Shown here: piece by piece, positions 48,693 to 59,016 of the stretch | How the letters are laid out: each line of letters starts with the position of its first letter | Numbering within the stretch: the stretch's first letter is position 1 | Assembly: GCF_014284155.1 (NCBI RefSeq) | Contig: NZ_JACOFZ010000003.1 | Location: forward strand, 303,072 to 367,071 | Length of the DNA: 64,000 nucleotides | Source of the DNA: Affinundibacterium nitidum | Lineage (GTDB): Bacteria > Pseudomonadota > Gammaproteobacteria > Burkholderiales > Burkholderiaceae_D | Direction: 5' to 3' | Translations under genes and position numbers: made by a program | The notes under the pieces: generated by a model | The model's input: the letters and a program-made list of their open reading frames with translations, nothing else | The model's database searches: none | What the model was told of the DNA's origin: nothing

Positions 48693-50096
48693 TCAACCAC
48701 CAAAAAACTCCGCATGCACGGCTTGCAAAGCTTTTTTACGATCTTCTTGATGCACTAACATATACGCAGCCACTTCGCTAGCACCAGCAGCTGCCAAAGT
48801 GACGCGCACGCCACTTGCAATCGCTGCCGACAATGCACGGCTGGCAATCGCACTACCCACGTCAGAAGCTTCCAGCACGCCGTCGCCGACGACAGCGACA
48901 ATCGCCACTTCGTCATTGCGGGAGACATCAACCACGCCGGCTAAATGATGTTCTTTCAAGGCCGCATACGCAGCATCGAGGTGATCTCGCGCCAATAAAA
49001 TATTAATCGCGGTTTGCGCGGTCAACACACTCTTGATATTGATACCGTTTTGATCAAGCGTATTCGTCACTTGTGCCAAGATGCCAGGTTTGAAGCCAAC
49101 ACCTGGGCCATGCAATTTGAGAATCGCCACGTCTTCGGTTGAGGTTACGCTTTTCACCACGTCTTTGGTCACCTTACGTTGTGCATTAATGATGGTGTAG
49201 GGCTGCAAGCCACGATCTGGGCGAGTGATATTTAAGATGCGAATCGGAATATCTTGGTTAAACAATGGCTCCACCGTGCGTGGGTGCAAAATTTTAGCGC
49301 CAAAATAAGACAGCTCAGCAGCTTCCAAATAATTCAATTGCGAAATCGAACGCGGGGTCGTCACCGTGCCGGGGTCTGCACTCAAGAAACCATCGACGTC
49401 TTTCCACACATCGAGCGACTCTGCACCGATACAGCAAGCAATCGATGCTGCGGAATAATCAGAACCGCCACGACCAAACAGCGTCGTTTTGCCTTCGCGA
49501 TCAACGCCATAAAAACCGGGCACCACGATGACCTCATTGCCTTCTAAGGCTTTCGCGACCGAGGCAGTACTCGCCTCGAAATCGCAGGCCGAGTTTCCAA
49601 ACACGCCATCAGTGATCAAACCGATGTCTTCCGGCAAAGCTTCGCGCGCGGCGATGCCACGGCTTAACAACACTTCGGTGAGCAACAAACTTGATAATCG
49701 TTCGCCGTAACTGAGAATTGCATCATTCACAAACGTCGGCACATCGCCTATGCAATGAATGCCAGTTAAGAAACGGTCTAATTGATCTAAGCGTTCGCCC
49801 AGTGCTTTTTCGGTGCGCTCACGATGTGCTGCATCTTGAATATTCGCTTCCACAATTTCTTTTTTCAAGGCGCGCAGGGTCAAGGTGTAATTGCGGCTCT
49901 CGGCCAAAGCGGCTTTAGTACCAGCACCTTCTTTGGCAGCCTGCACACAGCCGATAAGCGCATTGGTAATGCCGTAAAACGCCGACACCACTAGCACCAA
50001 TGGACGGTTATACGTTTGTACGACATTGACCACGCGGTCGATATCCTGAGGTTGGCGCAAGTTAGAGCCGCCAAATTTAACGACGATTTTTTTCAT
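48693..50096 (-). CDS. lysC: aspartate kinase
   Basis: A 467-residue aspartokinase. The kinase part opens with IVVKFGGSNLRQPQDI, has YGERLSSLLLTEVLLSRG, and LFGRGGSDYSAASIA (the nucleotide loop), then WKDVDGFLSADPG and LSYFGAKILHPRTVEPL. The C-terminal 150 residues form two ACT domains (VAILKLHGPGVGFKPGILAQ and VAIVAVVGDGVLEASDVG) that sense lysine or threonine. It catalyses the first step of lysine, threonine and methionine synthesis. The opening motif carries SNL where most have TSV. It stands alone, unlike the usual beta-proteobacterial lysC of about 410 residues, so it may be an additional aspartokinase. Confidence 0.9.
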   Translation of the reverse strand: MKKIVVKFGGSNLRQPQDIDRVVNVVQTYNRPLVLVVSAFYGITNALIGCVQAAKEGAGTKAALAESRNYTLTLRALKKEIVEANIQDAAHRERTEKALGERLDQLDRFLTGIHCIGDVPTFVNDAILSYGERLSSLLLTEVLLSRGIAAREALPEDIGLITDGVFGNSACDFEASTASVAKALEGNEVIVVPGFYGVDREGKTTLFGRGGSDYSAASIACCIGAESLDVWKDVDGFLSADPGTVTTPRSISQLNYLEAAELSYFGAKILHPRTVEPLFNQDIPIRILNITRPDRGLQPYTIINAQRKVTKDVVKSVTSTEDVAILKLHGPGVGFKPGILAQVTNTLDQNGINIKSVLTAQTAINILLARDHLDAAYAALKEHHLAGVVDVSRNDEVAIVAVVGDGVLEASDVGSAIASRALSAAIASGVRVTLAAAGASEVAAYMLVHQEDRKKALQAVHAEFFGG

Positions 50097-50314: not shown

Positions 50315-51472
50315 ATGAAAAAATTCTTGATTCAGCTTCGCAAAACACGGCTTTCATTGACGCTCATCACCTTATTCTTATTGCTTCTGATCTCGCTAGG
50401 CCTGGTTCTGTTTTTCGTGGCACAGGCGCGCTTTCGTGAGCCAGGGCCCGCGGTGCCAAGGCCACAGTACTCGGTAACAAAAATAAAGCGTGACGAGGGT
50501 AATGCCTTTTTTATTCTGCGCGGGATGGCGGCGGCCGCACATTTGAATGCCTTTGATGCGGGGCTCAACGCGGCCCAGAGAGATCTTGATATTTACGCCA
50601 AAGACGCTATTGCGGCAGAATCAGACGAGATAATCAAGGCCAATTTCCCCTTAATGGAAAAACCAGATTGGACCATCTGGAATTGCGCCTTGCCGCCAAA
50701 ATATTGGCAGACGATTATGAGGGATCGCCAGCATATCCAAACGAAAATCGCCGCCAACGCAGTCGGATTGAAAAGACTAGCTGAAATGCAGGCGCTGCCG
50801 CGTTACCAAGAGTATCTTCCACCCGGCATTCTCGACGGCAGCGCCTATTATGCGCATTTCCGCGTAGCGCTGGATATGCATTCGACCTTAGCAATCATCG
50901 ACATCCAAGATGAAAACACTGCGCCGGCGATCTTGCGTCTCACAAACGACCATATTTTCCTCAGAAAGCTCTTGGCAAATTCTGGCACACTGATCTCGCG
51001 GCGGGTCATGCTCGCCACCATGCATAAGCAACTGCAAGATCTCGACCAGATTCTCGAGCGTGCCTCATCTTTGCGTCCAGCAGACATCCAAGCACTACGA
51101 CAAGCATTTGTTCCTCTAACCGCAGCAGAAGGCGACCTCAGTGCTGTTTTGCAGCATCAGCAACAATGGCAAACGGTGAGTTTCGATAAAGCCGATTGGC
51201 AACGCCATTTGCGATTTGCTTTTGAATTGGAAGGTCAGCTCGACGCCATCCATCTCAAGCTCAGAGCGATCAATGAAGGAATCGATTTCACAGGCTTCGA
51301 GGCACTAGTACGCGAAGCAAATAAACTGTCAACCTCAGTCAAACTCATTTGGGACGCCAACAGCCGACAACTATCTCTTGACGTCGAACCTTATCGTCCC
51401 TCGTGCGGCAAGCAGGTGCTAGCTTTAAACATACCGTTGAACTCTCAAGGCGTCAAAGGCTTATCTAGGTAA
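50315..51472 (+). CDS. membrane-anchored protein, unknown
   Basis: A 385-residue protein with one N-terminal helix (residues 13-36, SLTLITLFLLLLISLGLVLF) and a mostly helical soluble part rich in Ala, Leu and Gln with an aromatic block PDWTIWNCALPPKYWQTIM, ending in SRQLSLDVEPYRPSCGKQVL, which looks like a short beta domain. Topology suggests a periplasmic body. I do not recognise a family. It lies 130 bases upstream of the FHA gene, on the same strand, and is a possible fourth member of that cluster. Confidence 0.65.
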   Translation: MKKFLIQLRKTRLSLTLITLFLLLLISLGLVLFFVAQARFREPGPAVPRPQYSVTKIKRDEGNAFFILRGMAAAAHLNAFDAGLNAAQRDLDIYAKDAIAAESDEIIKANFPLMEKPDWTIWNCALPPKYWQTIMRDRQHIQTKIAANAVGLKRLAEMQALPRYQEYLPPGILDGSAYYAHFRVALDMHSTLAIIDIQDENTAPAILRLTNDHIFLRKLLANSGTLISRRVMLATMHKQLQDLDQILERASSLRPADIQALRQAFVPLTAAEGDLSAVLQHQQQWQTVSFDKADWQRHLRFAFELEGQLDAIHLKLRAINEGIDFTGFEALVREANKLSTSVKLIWDANSRQLSLDVEPYRPSCGKQVLALNIPLNSQGVKGLSR

Positions 51473-51601: not shown

Positions 51602-52927
51602 ATGCACATTCCACCCATCCTACCGTCACCGTCACTACTAGCGTCGACGAGCTATGACCAGCACCCCGCTGCGGCGGCGGCTGTCTCGCGCCTGCGGCTC
51701 AGTGCCTACGATCCTCGAGCAGTTGGAGGTAGGCAGACCGTACGCCTCAGTTTGCCTAGCGACTTCGCCGTGGGTTTGGATAATCTAGAACTCCGTGTGC
51801 GTTGTGATTTGCTACCAATGAAGACGAGCCAATATCGTTTTGTTCGCTCGCTGTCAGGTGAATGGCAGTCGGTCTTACTGAGTTTCTCTTCGCGGAACAA
51901 AGAACACGGACAATATCCTTTAGAAATGGAATTGCGTTTCCATCATGAGCAGGCTTGCGTAAAACGTTGGCTCTGCAGCACGGTATTGCTTCTGCCGCGT
52001 AGTGACGCGAGCTTAAGTGAAATTCATCAAGTGTTCTTGGCGAGTCAAAAGAATGTCCGTGTCATCGCCGAAGATGGCGCGATCGCGCGACTACAGCAAG
52101 GTCAACTCGACAGTGGACGACATCGTCAACTCAATGTCGAAGTTATCGCGCGCGATGCGTCATTGGCACAAGTGGCCATGCCGAGTGATGCAGACCAAGG
52201 CCATAGTGAGACCGCGCCAGGTTACCTAGCCTGGGACGAAGTTTTGGTCGAAGTCGCAGCAGAAGCAATGACGCAGGAACAAGCGCTGCAACGCGAATAT
52301 CAACAAAAGAGCGTGGCGACTTCTGCAAACATCACCGCCCCAGCTATTTCTACAGAGGAGCGCTGGTGCGCCTTTTATCATCCTGTACGCCATCATTGGC
52401 TACGTATTCTCGAAGGCGAAACTTGGCGCATAGGCAGAGCTGTGGAGAAGGAAACTCAAGCCTTAACCAGAAACGCTGATATTCAGATTGCCCATCCGCG
52501 CATCAGCGCCATGCATGCCACGCTGCAACGACAAGAAGGTGGTGTCGAATTGATTGATAGTTCGCGTTACGGTGTGCTGCTCAATGGCGAGCGTCTCGCT
52601 CCCTTACGCCCGGTCAGATTGCAAATCGGCGACCGTATCGACTTATGTGCAAGCTTTGCTGGGACACTGGTGTGGCAAGTCATCACACTCAATCAAAACA
52701 TGTTAGTACTGCAGCACAGCTCAGAACATGGCGCTTTCGAGACTCTGTGTCTGATCTTCCGAGCAGCGAATGAAAAGTCTTGCGCCATCGCCAACGTCTA
52801 TCAAGGTTTAGCGCAGATGCAAGAGCAAACACAAGCACGTGGCATTCCCAATTTTGGCGCGGAAAACGCCACTACGAACTTAGACAGCTGGAAACGTTTC
52901 GAGCAGAGTTACCCGCCACAAATATAG
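51602..52927 (+). CDS. FHA domain protein
   Basis: A 441-residue protein. Residues of about 40-160 are beta-rich (VRLSLPSDFAVGLDNLELRV) with no known family. Residues 275-350 form an FHA domain: TWRIGRAVEKE gives Gly and Arg, HPRISAMHATL the RxSxxHA phosphothreonine-binding core, and YGVLLNGERLAPL the NG turn. FHA domains bind phosphothreonine. No membrane segment. It is followed 168 bases later by the zinc-ribbon/SPFH-like gene and then the Ser/Thr kinase gene, making an FHA target of the kinase likely (inference). Confidence 0.88.
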   Translation: MHIPPILPSPSLLASTSYDQHPAAAAAVSRLRLSAYDPRAVGGRQTVRLSLPSDFAVGLDNLELRVRCDLLPMKTSQYRFVRSLSGEWQSVLLSFSSRNKEHGQYPLEMELRFHHEQACVKRWLCSTVLLLPRSDASLSEIHQVFLASQKNVRVIAEDGAIARLQQGQLDSGRHRQLNVEVIARDASLAQVAMPSDADQGHSETAPGYLAWDEVLVEVAAEAMTQEQALQREYQQKSVATSANITAPAISTEERWCAFYHPVRHHWLRILEGETWRIGRAVEKETQALTRNADIQIAHPRISAMHATLQRQEGGVELIDSSRYGVLLNGERLAPLRPVRLQIGDRIDLCASFAGTLVWQVITLNQNMLVLQHSSEHGAFETLCLIFRAANEKSCAIANVYQGLAQMQEQTQARGIPNFGAENATTNLDSWKRFEQSYPPQI

Positions 52928-52967
52928 TTATTTCACCAACGAAAACTAGACTAACTTACAGATCTAA

Positions 52968-52995
52968 CACCAACAAGCGTTGAGTTGGTGGGTTT
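52968..52995 (+). terminator. weak hairpin between FHA and SPFH genes
   Basis: Arms CACCAAC (52968-52974) and GTTGGTG (52984-52990), loop of nine bases, followed by GGTTTTC. A short stem and broken T-run make it a weak terminator, more likely a partial attenuator that trims downstream expression. Confidence 0.35.
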
Positions 52996-53095
52996 TCACC
53001 CTTCTATTCAGACAAAGCAAAAAATCGGCGACTGCTACTATTTTGAGCATGATGCGCTGTCTTGGAAAGCGCAGCCTTTGCTTGAGGAGTCTCGC

Positions 53096-55156
53096 ATGAT
53101 CAGCTTATTTAAATCCGCTCATTCTGGTTGCAGCCGGTGCGCGCAGCCACATCACAATGACACACGCTTTTGCAGCGTTTGCGGTCTCGATTTCGACGCT
53201 CCCGCTCAACACGTGCTGTTAGCGCCAGATGAGGTCGCCATCGGATTTCATGCAACTAAGCTCGGCGATTTTTTAGCTTTGCATGCCCAACATGCGCATC
53301 AACTTCATATTCAAATTTTTCAATATGGGCAGGTGCATGACCTCACTCAAGATCAAGCGCTCAGTGTTGATAAACAAAGTGCTGCTGGCATCTTTATTAC
53401 GCGTAAAGGCCGTTTTGATGTGAACGTAGTGGTCGACGATTTACACACCGCTGAATTTCTCCCCTTGCAAGCAAATATTCGACTACAACTGCATGTTGCA
53501 CAAACTCGAGAATTCGCCGAACAATTTATGTCGGGAAGCTGCCGTGTGACCTTAACAGATCTGCAAACCTTGTTTTCCCCCAGCGTGCGTCAGCAATGCT
53601 TAGAAATGACCAATGCCCATACGCTCAGAGAGTTACAGGACCAAGTCGGACTCCAACAACATCTTCAACAAGAGATCAAGGCAACACTCGCAGCGCAACT
53701 TGAAAAGCTTGGCCTTGCTCTTGATCGCATCCAAGTCCAAGAACTTCGCCACGACAAACTCTCCAGTGCGAGAGAAAGCCTAGGTGAAAAACTTGGTAGC
53801 TTATACCTCATTATTGATCATCAACGTGCCAATAATGCGCATCGCAAACAGATCGATGCCTTATACAGCGAGGCAGAATGGCAGCAAATCGCCCGTGATG
53901 AAGAGCGGGTTCGTTTGCGTTATCGTCGCGAGGAAATGCGCCAACAACTGGGCAACGATCTATCGTGGTTGTATTTGCGTGGTGAACACGAGAATGCGAA
54001 GAAACGCTTAAGCCGCGCCAAGCTACGTCAAGACGAAGCAGAGCGTCTACACGCGATTCAATTGCGTGAACTCGAGCTCTATGCGCGCATTGCTGAAGCC
54101 AGTACTCGCAAACAAGCCATCGAACAAGGGGCGGCTAGTGCGGTACAGGAGCTCGAACATCAACTTCGCGAAAAGAAAGATCAGCAGCAAAACGAAGTTG
54201 ACGAATGGTTGCATATCCGCACTTTGGCGCGTATCAAAATGCGCTCAGAGTCTGAGCTAGCACAGATGCATAGCAAGGAAGCGGCGCAACTGCTCCAGCA
54301 GAAAATTGAACATCAATTACAAGCACAGCGTCTTGAACATGATCTCGAAGTGAATCAACGCCAGCAGCAGAGCTTAAGACAACAAGAGCAAGCCGCCTGG
54401 CTACACGAGCAGCAAAGACAATTACAACTACGCGAACAAGCACTAGAAGAGGAAGCCCATCAAACACGCTTGCTCAGCCTCAGCTTAGAAACGGAAGTGC
54501 GCGCACGCGAGTTCAAACGCATACAGGCTTGGGAAGACGAGCTGGCGCAACAACGGCAACAACAGCTACAAAGCGAGTCAGTACTCAAAGCGCAACAACA
54601 GGCGGTACAAATGGCGACGCTCAAACAGCAGATCGCTCAATTAGAACACCAGCAAGCGCAACAACAGGCCTTAGCGCAGCATGACAAACTCAGTCGCACC
54701 TTGGCTTTAGAGGCGCAATATGCGGAGCTTGAACAGCAGCGTCAACAGCAATCACATGTGGCCCAAGCACAGGCCGAACTCGAAGTTCAGTTGCGCAAAT
54801 TTGAGGCAATTGCCGCACTGAGCGAAACCAGTAAGATTGCGGTAGCTGATCAAGCAAATGCTGCCATGCTGACAGACGTGTTGAAGTTACAGACCATGGC
54901 CGCCATGAGCCCCGAACAAATTTTAGCGATCCAAGCAGCTCAGTCGGAGCACGCAGCGCAGGCGGTAGCCGAAGTCAAACGCCAAACTCATGGTCTCTCT
55001 TGGGAAGATACGGTGCGTATGCTGCACGAACGGGTACAAGAGGAGCGTGCGCAACGACAAGCAGAGCAAGAACGTCGACACGAAATCGATCTGCAAAACG
55101 CACAAGGTCTTGCTTTTGCACGTACGCCACCCTACGGTCCTTTGCAGGGTAAATGA
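53096..55156 (+). CDS. zinc-ribbon/SPFH-like/coiled-coil scaffold protein
   Basis: A 686-residue protein. An N-terminal zinc ribbon (CSRC at 12-15 and CSVC at 26-29) is followed by an SPFH (band-7)-like domain at 40-225, seen in PLQANIRLQLHVAQTREFAE, TLTDLQTLFSPSVRQQCLEM and LGLALDRIQVQELRHD. Residues of about 225-670 are a very long coiled coil rich in Gln, Glu, Ala and Leu. SPFH domains form oligomeric rings; here there is no membrane helix, so the protein would be cytoplasmic. The ATG at 53096 with GAGGAG is used. The SHOCT-kinase gene follows at 55221, 64 bases on. Confidence 0.75.
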   Translation: MISLFKSAHSGCSRCAQPHHNDTRFCSVCGLDFDAPAQHVLLAPDEVAIGFHATKLGDFLALHAQHAHQLHIQIFQYGQVHDLTQDQALSVDKQSAAGIFITRKGRFDVNVVVDDLHTAEFLPLQANIRLQLHVAQTREFAEQFMSGSCRVTLTDLQTLFSPSVRQQCLEMTNAHTLRELQDQVGLQQHLQQEIKATLAAQLEKLGLALDRIQVQELRHDKLSSARESLGEKLGSLYLIIDHQRANNAHRKQIDALYSEAEWQQIARDEERVRLRYRREEMRQQLGNDLSWLYLRGEHENAKKRLSRAKLRQDEAERLHAIQLRELELYARIAEASTRKQAIEQGAASAVQELEHQLREKKDQQQNEVDEWLHIRTLARIKMRSESELAQMHSKEAAQLLQQKIEHQLQAQRLEHDLEVNQRQQQSLRQQEQAAWLHEQQRQLQLREQALEEEAHQTRLLSLSLETEVRAREFKRIQAWEDELAQQRQQQLQSESVLKAQQQAVQMATLKQQIAQLEHQQAQQQALAQHDKLSRTLALEAQYAELEQQRQQQSHVAQAQAELEVQLRKFEAIAALSETSKIAVADQANAAMLTDVLKLQTMAAMSPEQILAIQAAQSEHAAQAVAEVKRQTHGLSWEDTVRMLHERVQEERAQRQAEQERRHEIDLQNAQGLAFARTPPYGPLQGK

Positions 55157-55220
55157 GGTAGCAGAGTTGGTGCGCCTTCCATGGCGTGCCATGACACTTT
55201 TTTGGCGGCTTTAGCAAACT

Positions 55221-56546
55221 ATGTCGACAGCGATTCAACAGATACGAGAACTACGCGCCTTGCATGAGGAAGGTTTGTTGAATCAGGACGAGTTCGCCCT
55301 GCGCAAGAACACCATACTCGATACCTTATTCTCTCTCTCCAAGTCTAAAGAGAGCGATGTCAAACCCGCTTCAGTCGTTGCAAACAAATCCCTCGCTGGC
55401 GATACCGATCTCGGTTATGTCGCTGGACAAGAACTGAGCGCCAGCCATAAACATTATCGGCTCATCAAATTGATCGGTCAGGGTGGTATGGGGCAGGTGT
55501 GGCAGGTGAATGATGTCAGCACCGAGCTGGAACTAGGTCATGCAGAAACACTAGCACTCAAAATATTAGCCCCCGAGTATAGTGACAGCGCCATTCATCG
55601 TCGCCTATTGATCGAAGAAGCGACCCTCGTTCGCAAACTCGCGCATGAACATATTGTTCGGGTGTACGACTGGGGGCGTGATCCAGCTACTGGCAACTAC
55701 TTCATCGTGATGGAATGCTTGCAAGGGCAAGATGTTGATCATTACTTGAGTAAGCATCTGCATCAAGCCGAAGTAGCACAGTCGGGCATAGGGCTACCTC
55801 AAGCCCTCAATATTTTGATGCCTGTCGCACATGCTTTGGCTTACGCTTGGGACAAGTATCAACTAGTGCACCGCGATCTGAAACCGGGTAATCTCTTTTT
55901 GTGTAAGAACGGTAGTGTCAAACTTCTCGATTTTGGCATCTCGGCACGGCTGCGCAGCCATTCACAACATCCTCAAGATGCTCAACGGAAAACTGAGCCC
56001 CATCTCAAACCGGGCCCACATGCTGGCACTGCGGGCTACCGCGCACCAGAGGCTGGCACGCATCAGCAAGTGTATCAACGTTCACTCGATGTATATGCGG
56101 TGGCTGTCATGCTTTATCAAATGCTGACGGGCGCCATGCCTTTTCCAGAACAGAGACTAATTCACCATCAGCCCGCCAAGCCAAGTAAGCTTAATGCAGG
56201 ACAGTGGCAGGCATTACAGAAAGGCTTTGCCTGGGACCCACGGCAAAGACATACCGATGTATTGGGCCTATTGCAAGACATCACGCAGCAGATGCAAGGC
56301 AGTGGCATTGCGCCAGCCTTTCACGACAGCGATCTGCGCGCTCAACAAAGGCAACAACGGAAGGAACTCGAACAACAACGTAGGCTGCAAGCCAGCCAAG
56401 CGTTAATACAATTGCAGGCAATGGTTAGCAAGCAATACCAAGCAAATGCAAACAGTCATGCATCGGTCCCCTTGCTTAAAACTCAGTGGGAAGCCTCAAA
56501 AACATATCTTGCTCGGATGAGTACTGGGACCCAGAAGAATACTTAG
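55221..56546 (+). CDS. Ser/Thr protein kinase with SHOCT-like N-terminus
   Basis: A 441-residue cytoplasmic kinase. Residues 5-38 resemble a SHOCT domain (IRELRALHEEGLLNQDEFA). Kinase motifs are the glycine loop GQGGMGQVW (86-94), ALKILAPEY with Lys114, HRDLKPGNL (217-225), DFGIS (237-241) and RAPEAGTH in the activation segment end, all intact, so it should be active. The C-terminal 90 residues are Gln/Glu-rich and coiled-coil-like. No membrane helix or PASTA repeat, unlike many bacterial kinases. It ends the FHA-SPFH-kinase set and overlaps a convergent small membrane gene by four bases. Confidence 0.93.
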   Translation: MSTAIQQIRELRALHEEGLLNQDEFALRKNTILDTLFSLSKSKESDVKPASVVANKSLAGDTDLGYVAGQELSASHKHYRLIKLIGQGGMGQVWQVNDVSTELELGHAETLALKILAPEYSDSAIHRRLLIEEATLVRKLAHEHIVRVYDWGRDPATGNYFIVMECLQGQDVDHYLSKHLHQAEVAQSGIGLPQALNILMPVAHALAYAWDKYQLVHRDLKPGNLFLCKNGSVKLLDFGISARLRSHSQHPQDAQRKTEPHLKPGPHAGTAGYRAPEAGTHQQVYQRSLDVYAVAVMLYQMLTGAMPFPEQRLIHHQPAKPSKLNAGQWQALQKGFAWDPRQRHTDVLGLLQDITQQMQGSGIAPAFHDSDLRAQQRQQRKELEQQRRLQASQALIQLQAMVSKQYQANANSHASVPLLKTQWEASKTYLARMSTGTQKNT

Positions 56547-56848
56547 CGTTCGATATCAATGTCGACGCCATGCTTTTTGAAGTACCACTGCATGAAGGGT
56601 ATCTCGATTAACAGATAGGTGATCACCGTGAACCAAAACCAATTCGCCTCAAATAAAAACATATTGAAGGCATAAGCAGTATTCCAACATTGCGAGCCGA
56701 CGATCAACAAGGAAAGTGCCGTCGCCACCAAATCACATTGCGCGATCTTCTTGAAGCTATTGCCTGCAAACTTGGGGTAGATCACGAGATAACCGACGAC
56801 AATAATCACAAAATTAAGTCCGATGACGGTAAATTCTAGGCTATCCAT
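56543..56848 (-). CDS. small membrane protein, unknown
   Basis: A 101-residue protein with three predicted helices (VIGLNFVIIVVGYLVIYP, VATALSLLIVGSQCWNTAY, WFWFTVITYLLIEIPFMQWY) and a charged C-terminus (KKHGVDIDIER). A good AAAGGA site precedes the ATG. Its stop overlaps the kinase gene end by four bases. It is separated from the next gene upstream (57245) by 85 bases. Family not recognised. Confidence 0.65.
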   Translation of the reverse strand: MDSLEFTVIGLNFVIIVVGYLVIYPKFAGNSFKKIAQCDLVATALSLLIVGSQCWNTAYAFNMFLFEANWFWFTVITYLLIEIPFMQWYFKKHGVDIDIER

Positions 56849-56933
56849 TTGTGGTCTTTCCTTTGATTTTTTGGGGTGTAGATCGTTCTAACATCTGGCT
56901 TTCGGCTTCTCAAATGGCCCCCATTTAATTCAA

Positions 56934-57245
56934 TTAACGAGTAGGACTAAAAAAGAATAAAAGCAAATTGAAGCTTAACAAGATGGGCGCAAGCAGTGTA
57001 ATCATCCATTGATGCGCTTGAGTTGAATCAGAACGTTTATTAAGTTTCCAGATGGCGATGGGCACCGCAAACAGTAAGAATATTGCTAGGAGAGGCAATA
57101 TGTAGACTATCAGCATGCCTAGCGCCAAGCCGCCCTGTGCATTGAAGAGCCCTAGATTACCGAACGCTCGATCAATCAAGATCATTACAATTGAAATGAC
57201 GAGAATGATAGCGGAGATAAAGATTTTTTGAACAATCGGAATCAT
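56934..57245 (-). CDS. small membrane protein, coupled to the upstream gene
   Basis: A 103-residue protein with three predicted helices (KIFISAIILVISIVMILID, LALGMLIVYILPLLAIFLLF, WMITLLAPILLSFNLLLFFF). Its ATG overlaps the stop of the 57242-57712 gene in an ATGA, so translation is coupled. No family recognised. The pairing of a soluble and a membrane protein resembles paired immunity genes in polymorphic-toxin loci (inference). Confidence 0.65.
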   Translation of the reverse strand: MIPIVQKIFISAIILVISIVMILIDRAFGNLGLFNAQGGLALGMLIVYILPLLAIFLLFAVPIAIWKLNKRSDSTQAHQWMITLLAPILLSFNLLLFFFSPTR

Positions 57246-57712
57246 GGTCGCAACACACTTCCGCACAGCTCGTTGAATTCCCCATCTTGAAATCTCGCCG
57301 CCACTGTATGCTCCTCGTCCCAATCAGTGCGATATGCAATTTCTGTCGCTAACTCATTTGCCAGGTAATAGACCGCCACGTATTCAATCTCCACATATGC
57401 CCAAATATCTGCGGCACGATTAATTTTAAGCTGAGACGCTGAACCAGTCTCTTCTGAGGCTAGAACTTCTGCGTATGGCTCATAGTGTTCGAAGAGTGCT
57501 CGTTCGATAGTTCGACACCAATGGGGATAGTTGTGTAGGGCAAGCTTCGCAGTCGAGATGGCGTCGGATTCTGGCGATTTTCTTGTCCCACTCAGAATCA
57601 ACGGATATTGTTGGCCCATCAGCCCGATTTGTCCACGCCACATGCCTCGACTACGTTTTAGCTCACCTAACTCTTGGTCGAAGTATGAGGGCGAGGAAAA
57701 TAGAGAGAACAT
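57242..57712 (-). CDS. small soluble protein, immunity-like (tentative)
   Basis: A 156-residue protein: MWRGQIGLMGQQYPLILSGT opens a beta-rich part, a helical part with LALHNYPHWCRTIERALFEH follows, and RTDWDEEHTVAARFQDGEFN near the end. The WDxEH segment and general shape recall DUF6985-type immunity-like proteins, a comparison from memory that needs a search. No signal peptide. A stop/start overlap (ATGA) joins it to the membrane protein gene at 57245. Confidence 0.5.
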   Translation of the reverse strand: MFSLFSSPSYFDQELGELKRSRGMWRGQIGLMGQQYPLILSGTRKSPESDAISTAKLALHNYPHWCRTIERALFEHYEPYAEVLASEETGSASQLKINRAADIWAYVEIEYVAVYYLANELATEIAYRTDWDEEHTVAARFQDGEFNELCGSVLRP

Positions 57713-57751
57713 ATATCCACCTTCTTTTCGTTGGTGACTAAGCTTACTTTT

Positions 57752-57988
57752 TTAGCCTAGAAGATATGCTGAGCCAGTTGCTTTCTTCACCCACTCTTCA
57801 TCACTTTTAATCACTTGTTCAGCGCGAAGTGCCAATTTCGTTGCAATAGCAATCGAACGCTCGACCAACTCATCCTCATTCTCTGCAGTTAGACTTTGAT
57901 GCTGAAGTAAGCCAGCAAAGACTGTCGCTGCCATTTGGGCGACCACTGATTCACTATGTTGCAAATGCAAGAATTCTTCTTTTGTCAT
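57752..57988 (-). CDS. small helical protein, unknown
   Basis: A 78-residue, probably all-helical protein (EEFLHLQHSESVVAQMAATV, ATKLALRAEQVIKSDEEWV) with no cysteines and no signal. The ATG at 57988 has a GGAGA site. It lies 39 bases before the tentative immunity gene on the same strand and may form a unit with it. Family not recognised. Confidence 0.55.
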   Translation of the reverse strand: MTKEEFLHLQHSESVVAQMAATVFAGLLQHQSLTAENEDELVERSIAIATKLALRAEQVIKSDEEWVKKATGSAYLLG

Positions 57989-58049
57989 ACTGTCTCCATG
58001 TATTTCTAATGATCTCAAAGATTGTCGCCGACTATGTCAATCGCAATCA

Positions 58050-58547
58050 CTAGTCTAATGCGCGACTCGCTTCACACAAAGCTTTGGACAATAGGTCTTT
58101 GTCGATTAAACCCGATGCCGGTTTGCGAACCGACGCACCCGCTGAGATAGCCCCACTCTGATACGAGATGCCATAGATCGTAGCATAAGTGCCGCTTGCA
58201 TCCATCACAAAAGCATAGGCACCGTTAAAACCCTCAGCACTCAATGCTTTAGCAAATTCAGTGGCCGAAGCTGCCGAACCATGGACTGCCTCGATCAATT
58301 TTGTCCTATCTAAGGCTTTCGGAAATTTATCGAATTGCACACTTTCTATGCCATCGATTTCGACAAACTTGCGCCAGCATGGATGTTCAAAATTCTTATC
58401 ACGCATGGCCTTAAATGATTTCGTTCCGAGTTCGGTTTTACTGAAATCGAAGAAGGCGACAACCAAAGGTTTAGAGCCAGCGTTGGCTGCCAAACTGGCG
58501 CATAACAGCGTGATGAAACAAAAGCTATAGAAAAGGAGTCGACGCAT
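58050..58547 (-). CDS. secreted protein, unknown
   Basis: A 165-residue precursor with a signal peptide (MRRLLFYSFCFITLLCASL, cleavage after ANA). The mature part of about 140 residues has KPLVVAFFDFSKTELG, HPCWRKFVEIDG and a C-terminal LCEASRALD. Cysteines in both (HPCW, LCEA) may pair. Family not recognised. It starts one base after the MarR stop, so the two genes form one operon and MarR may control it. Confidence 0.7.
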   Translation of the reverse strand: MRRLLFYSFCFITLLCASLAANAGSKPLVVAFFDFSKTELGTKSFKAMRDKNFEHPCWRKFVEIDGIESVQFDKFPKALDRTKLIEAVHGSAASATEFAKALSAEGFNGAYAFVMDASGTYATIYGISYQSGAISAGASVRKPASGLIDKDLLSKALCEASRALD

Positions 58548-58548
58548 A

Positions 58549-59016
58549 TTAAGCCTGCTCCACAAGACCATCTTCCTCTTGTTGTCGGTTACTGTTCACC
58601 AAGGCCTCTATCAAAATCGCCAGTGCATCATGTATCTGTGCGTGTTGAGCTTGCGGGATATGTTCGAACACTTGTGTCGCATGCGCATTCAAGGTTTGTT
58701 CGAGTTTTTCAGCACGAATACGACCCAGCGCCGTCAGACTTAATTTGACGCTACGCCCATCCGTGTCATGTGGCGACTTCTGCACCACACCATCGGAAAC
58801 TAAGGAATCCACCGCGCGACTAATCCAGGCTTTATCGAGTGATAAACGATCTGCCAAAGCTTGCTGGCTCAAACCATCAACGCGCAACAATTCCGTCAAC
58901 ACGTGACATTGCACATTCGAAGCACCATCCACTGAGGCGGATTGCGCACGTTGCGAGCGTACGAATAAACGACTGAGTTCACGGACCATCAACGCGGGAT
59001 CATCTGGGATAGGCAT
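58549..59016 (-). CDS. MarR family transcriptional regulator
   Basis: A 155-residue winged-helix protein. VLTELLRVDGLSQQALADRL and SLDKAWISRAVDSLVSDGVV are the HTH, HDTDGRSVKLSLTALGRIR the wing. MarR proteins respond to phenolic or oxidant ligands. The secreted-protein gene follows immediately (one base between stop and start), and the DUF3147 gene lies divergently 189 bases away, so these are candidate targets. Confidence 0.92.
   Translation of the reverse strand: MPIPDDPALMVRELSRLFVRSQRAQSASVDGASNVQCHVLTELLRVDGLSQQALADRLSLDKAWISRAVDSLVSDGVVQKSPHDTDGRSVKLSLTALGRIRAEKLEQTLNAHATQVFEHIPQAQHAQIHDALAILIEALVNSNRQQEEDGLVEQA

Follow-up and report, generated by a model that had tools for sequence, protein, structure and literature searches.

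Three genes on the + strand of a 64,000-nucleotide (nt) stretch of Affinundibacterium nitidum DNA (positions 303,072 to 367,071 of contig NZ_JACOFZ010000003.1; hereafter the window) encode an FHA protein, a zinc-ribbon/SPFH/coiled-coil protein, here named ZRS, and a SHOCT-like kinase, here named KIN. As open reading frames (ORFs) of the window, the FHA gene occupies 51602-52927, the ZRS gene 53096-55156 and the KIN gene 55221-56546, with spacings of 168 nt between FHA and ZRS and 64 nt between ZRS and KIN. These same-strand genes and their domains were described in an initial annotation of the window; the genes are present where it placed them, and the FHA, Band 7 and kinase domains are seen by Pfam above cutoff. 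In many relatives the trio stands beside wall-building genes, which suggests a so far undescribed phosphorylation control of the cell envelope.

The scaffold, the kinase and the FHA protein

All features of the trio given below lie on the + strand. A scan for promoter- and terminator-like sites at the trio gave matches at chance level only. By hydropathy, the three window proteins are free of hydrophobic helices (top 19-residue means of 1.02-1.25); the product of the neighboring gene at 50315 reaches 3.06.

ZRS is a protein of 686 residues. Its start is placed at the ATG at 53096, which has GAGGAG upstream; the ORF listing begins earlier, at a TTG at 52985. In the alignment, an N-terminal zinc ribbon of the form CxxC-x10-CxxC (residues 12 to 30, 53129-53185) is marked by C12, C15, C26 and C29, and Pfam zinc-ribbon profiles match the window protein weakly, under cutoff. 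An SPFH (Band 7) domain follows at about residues 38 to 222 (53207-53761), and then a presumed long coiled coil at about residues 223 to 640 (53762-55015). The latter is assigned from composition: the 400 residues from 241 to 640 include 1 Pro and 4 Gly. A C-terminal zinc ribbon is present in 10 of the 12 other-genus tails printed and is missing in the window, in a related Oxalobacteraceae metagenome-assembled genome (L038) and in four tails from the window's own genus.

With full-length ZRS, Pfam returns a weak Band_7_1 match (11.8 bits, cutoff 24). Once the coiled coil is removed, PF01145 (Band_7) matches the window protein at 42.3 bits (cutoff 23.6) and all 22 of the 22 members at E<=0.01. 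The fold search used a predicted model of residues 1 to 254, built from two sequences and of low confidence (pLDDT 58.9). Foldseek rows 1-44 with this model are SPFH-type entries, the exception being row 30 (2rpb), which is titled just "membrane protein"; TM-scores normalized by the ZRS query are low, at 0.27-0.40. The Foldseek and VIA-align rows include stomatin, prohibitin, HflK/C, flotillin, erlin and vault. Because the ZRS profile, run against the sequences of solved structures, gave 12 rows at E<=1, none of them SPFH and most of them ribosomal L37e/L40 zinc ribbons, the assignment depends on Pfam together with the fold comparison. By profile and predicted fold, ZRS belongs to the SPFH/Band 7 superfamily, as had been supposed for its middle part, and membership in this superfamily would be consistent with an oligomeric ring or cage at the membrane.

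KIN (441 residues) begins with a SHOCT-like segment (residues 6 to 33, 55236-55319). At 23.8 bits the window copy falls under the Pfam cutoff of 27, though 13 of 15 KIN members match SHOCT at E<=0.001. The Ser/Thr kinase domain spans residues 79 to 312 (55455-56156; PF00069, 130.4 bits, cutoff 31.7). An active Ser/Thr kinase is marked by its glycine loop, catalytic Lys, HRD, DFG and APE motifs. In an alignment of 15 sequences, GGM, K114, HRD (217-219), D237, G239 and APE (275-277) are invariant, and DFG is DYG in one. By its motifs, KIN has what is expected of an active kinase, and the earlier description of it as intact and without a membrane helix agrees with the alignment and with hydropathy. 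No PASTA match was found in KIN. The solved structures nearest to its kinase part are PknA and then PknB.

In other genera, KIN has an FGE-sulfatase domain at its C-terminus (199.2 bits for the L046 copy), which is present in 9 of 15 members. A catalytic Cys motif is expected in FGE enzymes. The RGGSW block of the FGE domain contains no Cys in 12 of 12 family sequences printed, and therefore the FGE domains of family KIN look like binding domains. A possible remnant of this domain is marked at residues 414 to 438 of the window protein (56460-56534) from the resemblance seen in three own-genus relatives, whose KIN tails score 11.8, 13.2 and 13.5 bits against the FGE core, with 0 of 500 shuffles as high in each case. 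Taken alone, the tail of the window's own copy is not significant, as it scores 1.3 bits and shuffles reach 5.7; the tails of L038 and L039 are likewise not significant. KIN is not identified as MAD6, the MADS defense kinase: its 123 bits against NCBIfam MADS6 are below the curated cutoff of 460, and PADLOC mad6 is matched over profile positions 44-317 of 659.

The FHA protein (441 residues) is the presumed phosphothreonine reader. Its FHA domain lies at residues 275 to 348 (52424-52645; PF00498, 57.7 bits, cutoff 20.7), and the profile matches 10 of 12 members at E<=0.001. Canonical FHA domains have a phosphate-pocket Arg and Ser and the Asn of an NG(T) motif. The pocket Arg (R279) and Ser (S302) are present in 12 of 12 aligned sequences, as are G278 and H305. 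The N-terminal region (about residues 30 to 220, 51689-52261) contains many invariant columns in the alignment of 12 sequences and has no Pfam match. A predicted model of the N-terminal half (pLDDT 44.2) was too poor for a fold, and with it no Foldseek row reached E<=0.001; the top rows mix FHA-domain entries with lipocalin-type ones. Against the TagH/Fha family of the type VI secretion system (T6SS) the protein scores 20.7 bits, below the cutoff of 120.25, in agreement with the initial annotation, which saw no adjoining T6SS genes.

Co-occurrence and distribution

ZRS occurs in 58 of the 196 family genomes, spread over 7 of 44 genera. The FHA profile matches 71 of the 196, comprising 59 full-length orthologues (E<=1.6e-137) and 12 short FHA-domain matches. 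All 58 ZRS genomes have the full-length FHA orthologue, and it occurs alone in just one genome, G044, which is 68% complete. KIN orthologues (E<=5.3e-150) were sought in 20 genomes: all 11 ZRS-positive family genomes have one and none of the 8 ZRS-negative genomes does, while G331, a ZRS-positive genome from another family, has none. In a sample of 12 genomes from the window's genus, 5 have all three genes and 7 have none. The predicted co-occurrence of the trio is thus borne out, in counts that ignore the relatedness of the genomes. In G001, a single contig has the three genes at positions 0.63, 3.79 and 4.53 Mb. All three are kept there though far apart, and therefore adjacency is not what holds the genes together. 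Over 13 loci, the pairwise distances of the three proteins correlate with one another at 0.84-0.97 (species history uncorrected). Between L038 and the window, FHA and the ZRS N-terminus are 63% identical and KIN is 93% identical.

ZRS is rare outside the family in the sampled genomes. In an order sample (up to 8 candidates scored per genome), 8 of 300 genomes match the ZRS profile, 5 of them strongly (4 of the family plus G331); in a phylum sample (up to 6 candidates per genome), 4 of 398 match, 2 of them strongly and both of the family. Four genera contribute 12, 12, 12 and 11 ZRS-positive genomes (counts of positives, without genus totals). A plasmid search gave no ZRS and no FHA match, and a phage search no ZRS match.

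An island surrounds the ZRS homologue of G331 (L077:3677-10010, L108:9264-14716, L109:1233-5399). It holds two caspase-FGE fusions, a Cdc48/CdvC-like AAA protein, a PP2C-like gene, a transpeptidase and a kinase, and by eye there are transposase-like genes close by.

A larger form in relatives

Gene neighborhoods were compared at 22 loci: the window, L038 and 20 loci from the other 57 ZRS genomes. In 21 of the 22 (all but G001), KIN comes immediately 3' of ZRS and on its strand; at the 20 loci measured, the spacing is -1 to 117 nt. FHA adjoins ZRS in the window, in L038 and at 3 of 4 other own-genus loci; in G177, a 2.2-kb gene on the opposite strand separates the two. In relatives the trio belongs to a larger form, missed by the initial annotation, whose added parts are the FGE domain on the kinase, a PP2C-like phosphatase, a second kinase, a SEDS protein and a transpeptidase. 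Upstream of ZRS, the transpeptidase and four proteins, U451, U183, U337 and U329, are present in 11 of the 22 neighborhoods; one further neighborhood has the four but no transpeptidase. FHA and the PP2C-like gene stand side by side in 6 of 22. Farther along, L114, L115 and L117 encode a protein of ~515-579 residues without assignment, a SEDS-type protein and a second kinase; the SEDS copy of L115 matches FTSW_RODA at 70.6 bits (cutoff 26.4), and the second kinase there scores 112.2 bits. The transpeptidase of L050 (59.2 bits, cutoff 22.1) shows STFK, SLN and KTG in that sequence. An identical set of 35 of the 196 family genomes, all ZRS-positive, has the transpeptidase and the SEDS gene. G070 has the transpeptidase, KIN, FHA, PP2C-like and SEDS genes inside ~25 kb of contig C1; a single locus with FHA, PP2C, kinase, SEDS and transpeptidase genes is found in such relatives and not in the window's genus.

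The four U proteins have no family match. U337 looked by eye like a second SPFH protein but is not claimed as one, its hhalign comparison with the profile of ZRS reaching E 0.069 across 30 columns. U329 (L050:8518-9504), a conserved protein of 329 residues, resembles by eye two repeats of a Lon/ComM-type fold, and the conserved pair U451 and U183 (L054:5455-7361) may by eye be a helix-turn-helix regulator with an anti-sigma-like partner. Some synthase-gene copies of the larger form, namely the transpeptidase in G106, G018 and G120 and SEDS in G003, G133, G056, G156 and G172, matched in pieces or with an in-frame stop, reflecting either decay or assembly error.

A probably reduced form in the window's genus

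Among 12 own-genus genomes there is no orthologue of the larger form's transpeptidase, SEDS, U329 or PP2C, with weak generic matches or none. The FGE-like KIN tails of three relatives, the missing C-terminal ribbon of ZRS and the missing synthase genes together suggest that the window's genus carries a reduced form of the module, whether by loss or by never having had the synthase pair. The genome of the window also contains a generic PP2C-like frame of 271 residues (G000:C11:470932, E 3.6e-7), which could act as an eraser.

Between lysC and the FHA gene lies a gene (50315-51472) for a membrane-anchored protein of 385 residues without a Pfam family. Its proposed role as a fourth member of the module did not hold up: paralogues of 22-28% identity occur in 12 of 40 genus genomes including the window's own, some of them trio-less, and no match was found in L038-L042. 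A second paralogue in the same genome lies at G000:C11:1567156. In 6 of 6 cases, the 5 own-genus carriers and L038, lysC flanks the module at its FHA end; in the window it lies beyond the 50315 gene, at 48693-50096. Among the 7 module-less genus genomes, only G188 has a counterpart of this lysC (88% identity), the other 6 being distant at 29-31%. Downstream, 56543-58571 holds five small genes, one of which (57242-57712) encodes a DUF6985 protein; compared by length and order, the five recur in L038 in the same order with equal or similar lengths.

Relation to known systems and a proposed mechanism

The actinobacterial pkn cluster, one of the known systems closest to the larger form, includes among its genes a phosphatase. 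It also has two FHA proteins, RodA, PbpA, PknA and PknB (PMC3989709). The larger form resembles it: an FHA protein and a PP2C-like phosphatase occur together with two Ser/Thr kinases, a SEDS protein of the RodA/FtsW type and a transpeptidase, and the kinase part of KIN is closest to PknA/PknB. The larger form is unlike the pkn cluster in that KIN lacks a membrane helix and a PASTA match and has SHOCT and, in other genera, FGE, and in having a central SPFH coiled-coil scaffold and the four family-less U proteins. The window form differs further, having neither the synthase pair nor a linked PP2C.

A second parallel is YdjI of the Bacillus subtilis PspA system, an SPFH protein that holds a partner at the membrane: PspA depends on YdjI for its localization there, and without YdjG/H, the partners of YdjI, wall synthesis is misplaced (PMC8581546). 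However, no kinase or FHA partner is mentioned for YdjI in the available part of that paper, and ZRS differs in its N-terminal zinc ribbon and long presumed coiled coil. By eye and by some Pfam scans, no PspA-like gene was recognized near the trio. Archaeal ESCRT loci likewise have SPFH, FHA, kinase and phosphatase genes around membrane remodeling, but the SPFH protein of these loci (Meth_adaptin) comes from a different archaeal clade than their FHA/kinase parts (Halo_FHA, main clade) (PMC10936438), and no Vps4/ESCRT-III was recognized beside the trio by the same means. The architecture of other-genus KIN, with an N-terminal SHOCT, a kinase and a C-terminal FGE, also has a published counterpart, which is a single protein with an extra peptidoglycan-binding domain and for which the available text mentions no gene module (PMC3581485). 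The parts are known, then, and so are partly similar assemblies. As the initial annotation had surmised in knowing no named system with this gene order, no description of the module itself was found in the open-licence literature (subscription papers and preprints not covered).

With the domains, the co-occurrence and the conserved gene context as observed, the trio may be one functional unit for the control of envelope synthesis, in which an SPFH scaffold has a kinase and a phosphothreonine reader of its own; we put the probability of this at roughly 45%. ZRS, lacking a membrane helix, would form a scaffold of the ring or cage type at the cytoplasmic side of the membrane. KIN, a cytosolic kinase of the PknA/PknB type, would dock on it through the SHOCT-like N-terminus, and the FHA protein would bind the resulting phosphothreonines and so recruit or release a client. 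The output would be control of peptidoglycan or envelope synthesis, as indicated by the eraser, second kinase, SEDS protein and transpeptidase of the larger form. In the window's genus, the core unit of kinase, scaffold and reader would act on other envelope clients. The candidate roles of scaffold, kinase and reader are drawn from the domains; docking, phosphorylation targets and output we infer from gene context and the two parallels, the pkn cluster and YdjI, and the assembly state from the superfamily. A more specific version is somewhat more doubtful. In it, the module would be a previously undescribed kind of Gram-negative phospho-signaling scaffold, an SPFH ring or cage equipped with a kinase and a reader, whose full form directs a dedicated SEDS-transpeptidase synthase of peptidoglycan; it would then be the proteobacterial equivalent of the pkn cluster, with the ring taking the place of the membrane kinase's sensor.

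Several observations weigh against this proposal. The NG(T)-loop Asn of the FHA domain is replaced in the alignment (SRYG, and SRFG in one sequence). The PP2C-like protein stays under its cutoffs (PP2C_2 19.5 bits, cutoff 24; Stp1 41.8, cutoff 230). At the cuts used, the transpeptidase/SEDS pair is missing from 23 of the 58 ZRS-positive genomes. Since the output genes are missing from the window's genus, an envelope output is proposed there by analogy. In G331, a caspase-FGE gene stands beside ZRS in the place of KIN. In B. subtilis, it was without ydjG/H that the wall phenotype appeared, and losing ydjI or pspA did not produce it (PMC8581546). The statement of the initial annotation that SHOCT domains oligomerize is not supported by the single SHOCT domain tested, which seemingly did not self-oligomerize (PMC3581485).

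Alternative explanations

The trio could instead belong to a conflict or regulated-death system, with the SPFH protein as sensor platform, the C-type-lectin-like FGE domain as recognition module and a kinase or caspase as effector. The main support for this comes from G331, where the ZRS homologue lies beside a caspase-FGE fusion of 1344 residues and a second caspase-FGE gene, and where the C-terminus of the AAA protein matches NCBIfam anti-phage ProA at 240.3 bits (under the whole-protein cutoff of 1500). The binding-type look of the Cys-less FGE domains would suit such a role, and FGE/FGS, kinase, caspase and FHA domains are known from published conflict systems (PMC7159879). The KIN of the window, however, has no FGE domain. 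Several PADLOC models of PD-T4-6, a single-gene defense kinase, match KIN over most of the profile length (best 1.5e-48, profile 8-260 of 292), but these models are mostly kinase domain and have no printed cutoff, and the matches are probably generic, of the kind any kinase would give. A PADLOC scan of 9 accessory proteins left 8 without a match and gave the PP2C one weak match (17.7 bits). The plasmid and phage searches were negative, as given above, and the positives in four genera look more like those of a core gene than of patchy defense. We consider a conflict system unlikely.

About equally improbable is a membrane-stress system of the phage-shock kind, in which ZRS would act as YdjI does, holding a membrane-repair protein at sites of damage while the kinase and FHA protein tune assembly. 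YdjI provides a precedent for an SPFH protein in such a role (PMC8581546), and a Band 7 family, PF13421, is the commonest SHOCT linkage (PMC3581485). Nevertheless, no PspA- or ESCRT-III-like gene was recognized near the trio by eye and by Pfam of some neighbors (the genome was not searched for PspA). Finally, a T6SS-type threonine phosphorylation pathway, whose components are named PpkA, Fha and PppA, can be invoked for a kinase and an FHA protein with a PP2C-like gene in relatives, but it is very improbable given the TagH score of the FHA protein and the failure to recognize any T6SS gene by eye in the neighborhood gene lists (no dedicated T6SS search was made).

In Gram-positive bacteria, peptidoglycan synthesis is well known to be controlled through phosphothreonine; in Gram-negative bacteria such control is, to our knowledge, little known. 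If the trio indeed unites an SPFH scaffold, a kinase and a reader for the control of envelope synthesis, it would provide a tractable Gram-negative example, with the module in seven genera of one family and the SEDS-transpeptidase pair in 35 of the 58 genomes. It would also tie flotillin-type membrane domains to localized wall synthesis via phosphorylation, and the reduced, patchy form in the window's genus would offer a natural comparison of genomes with and without the module.

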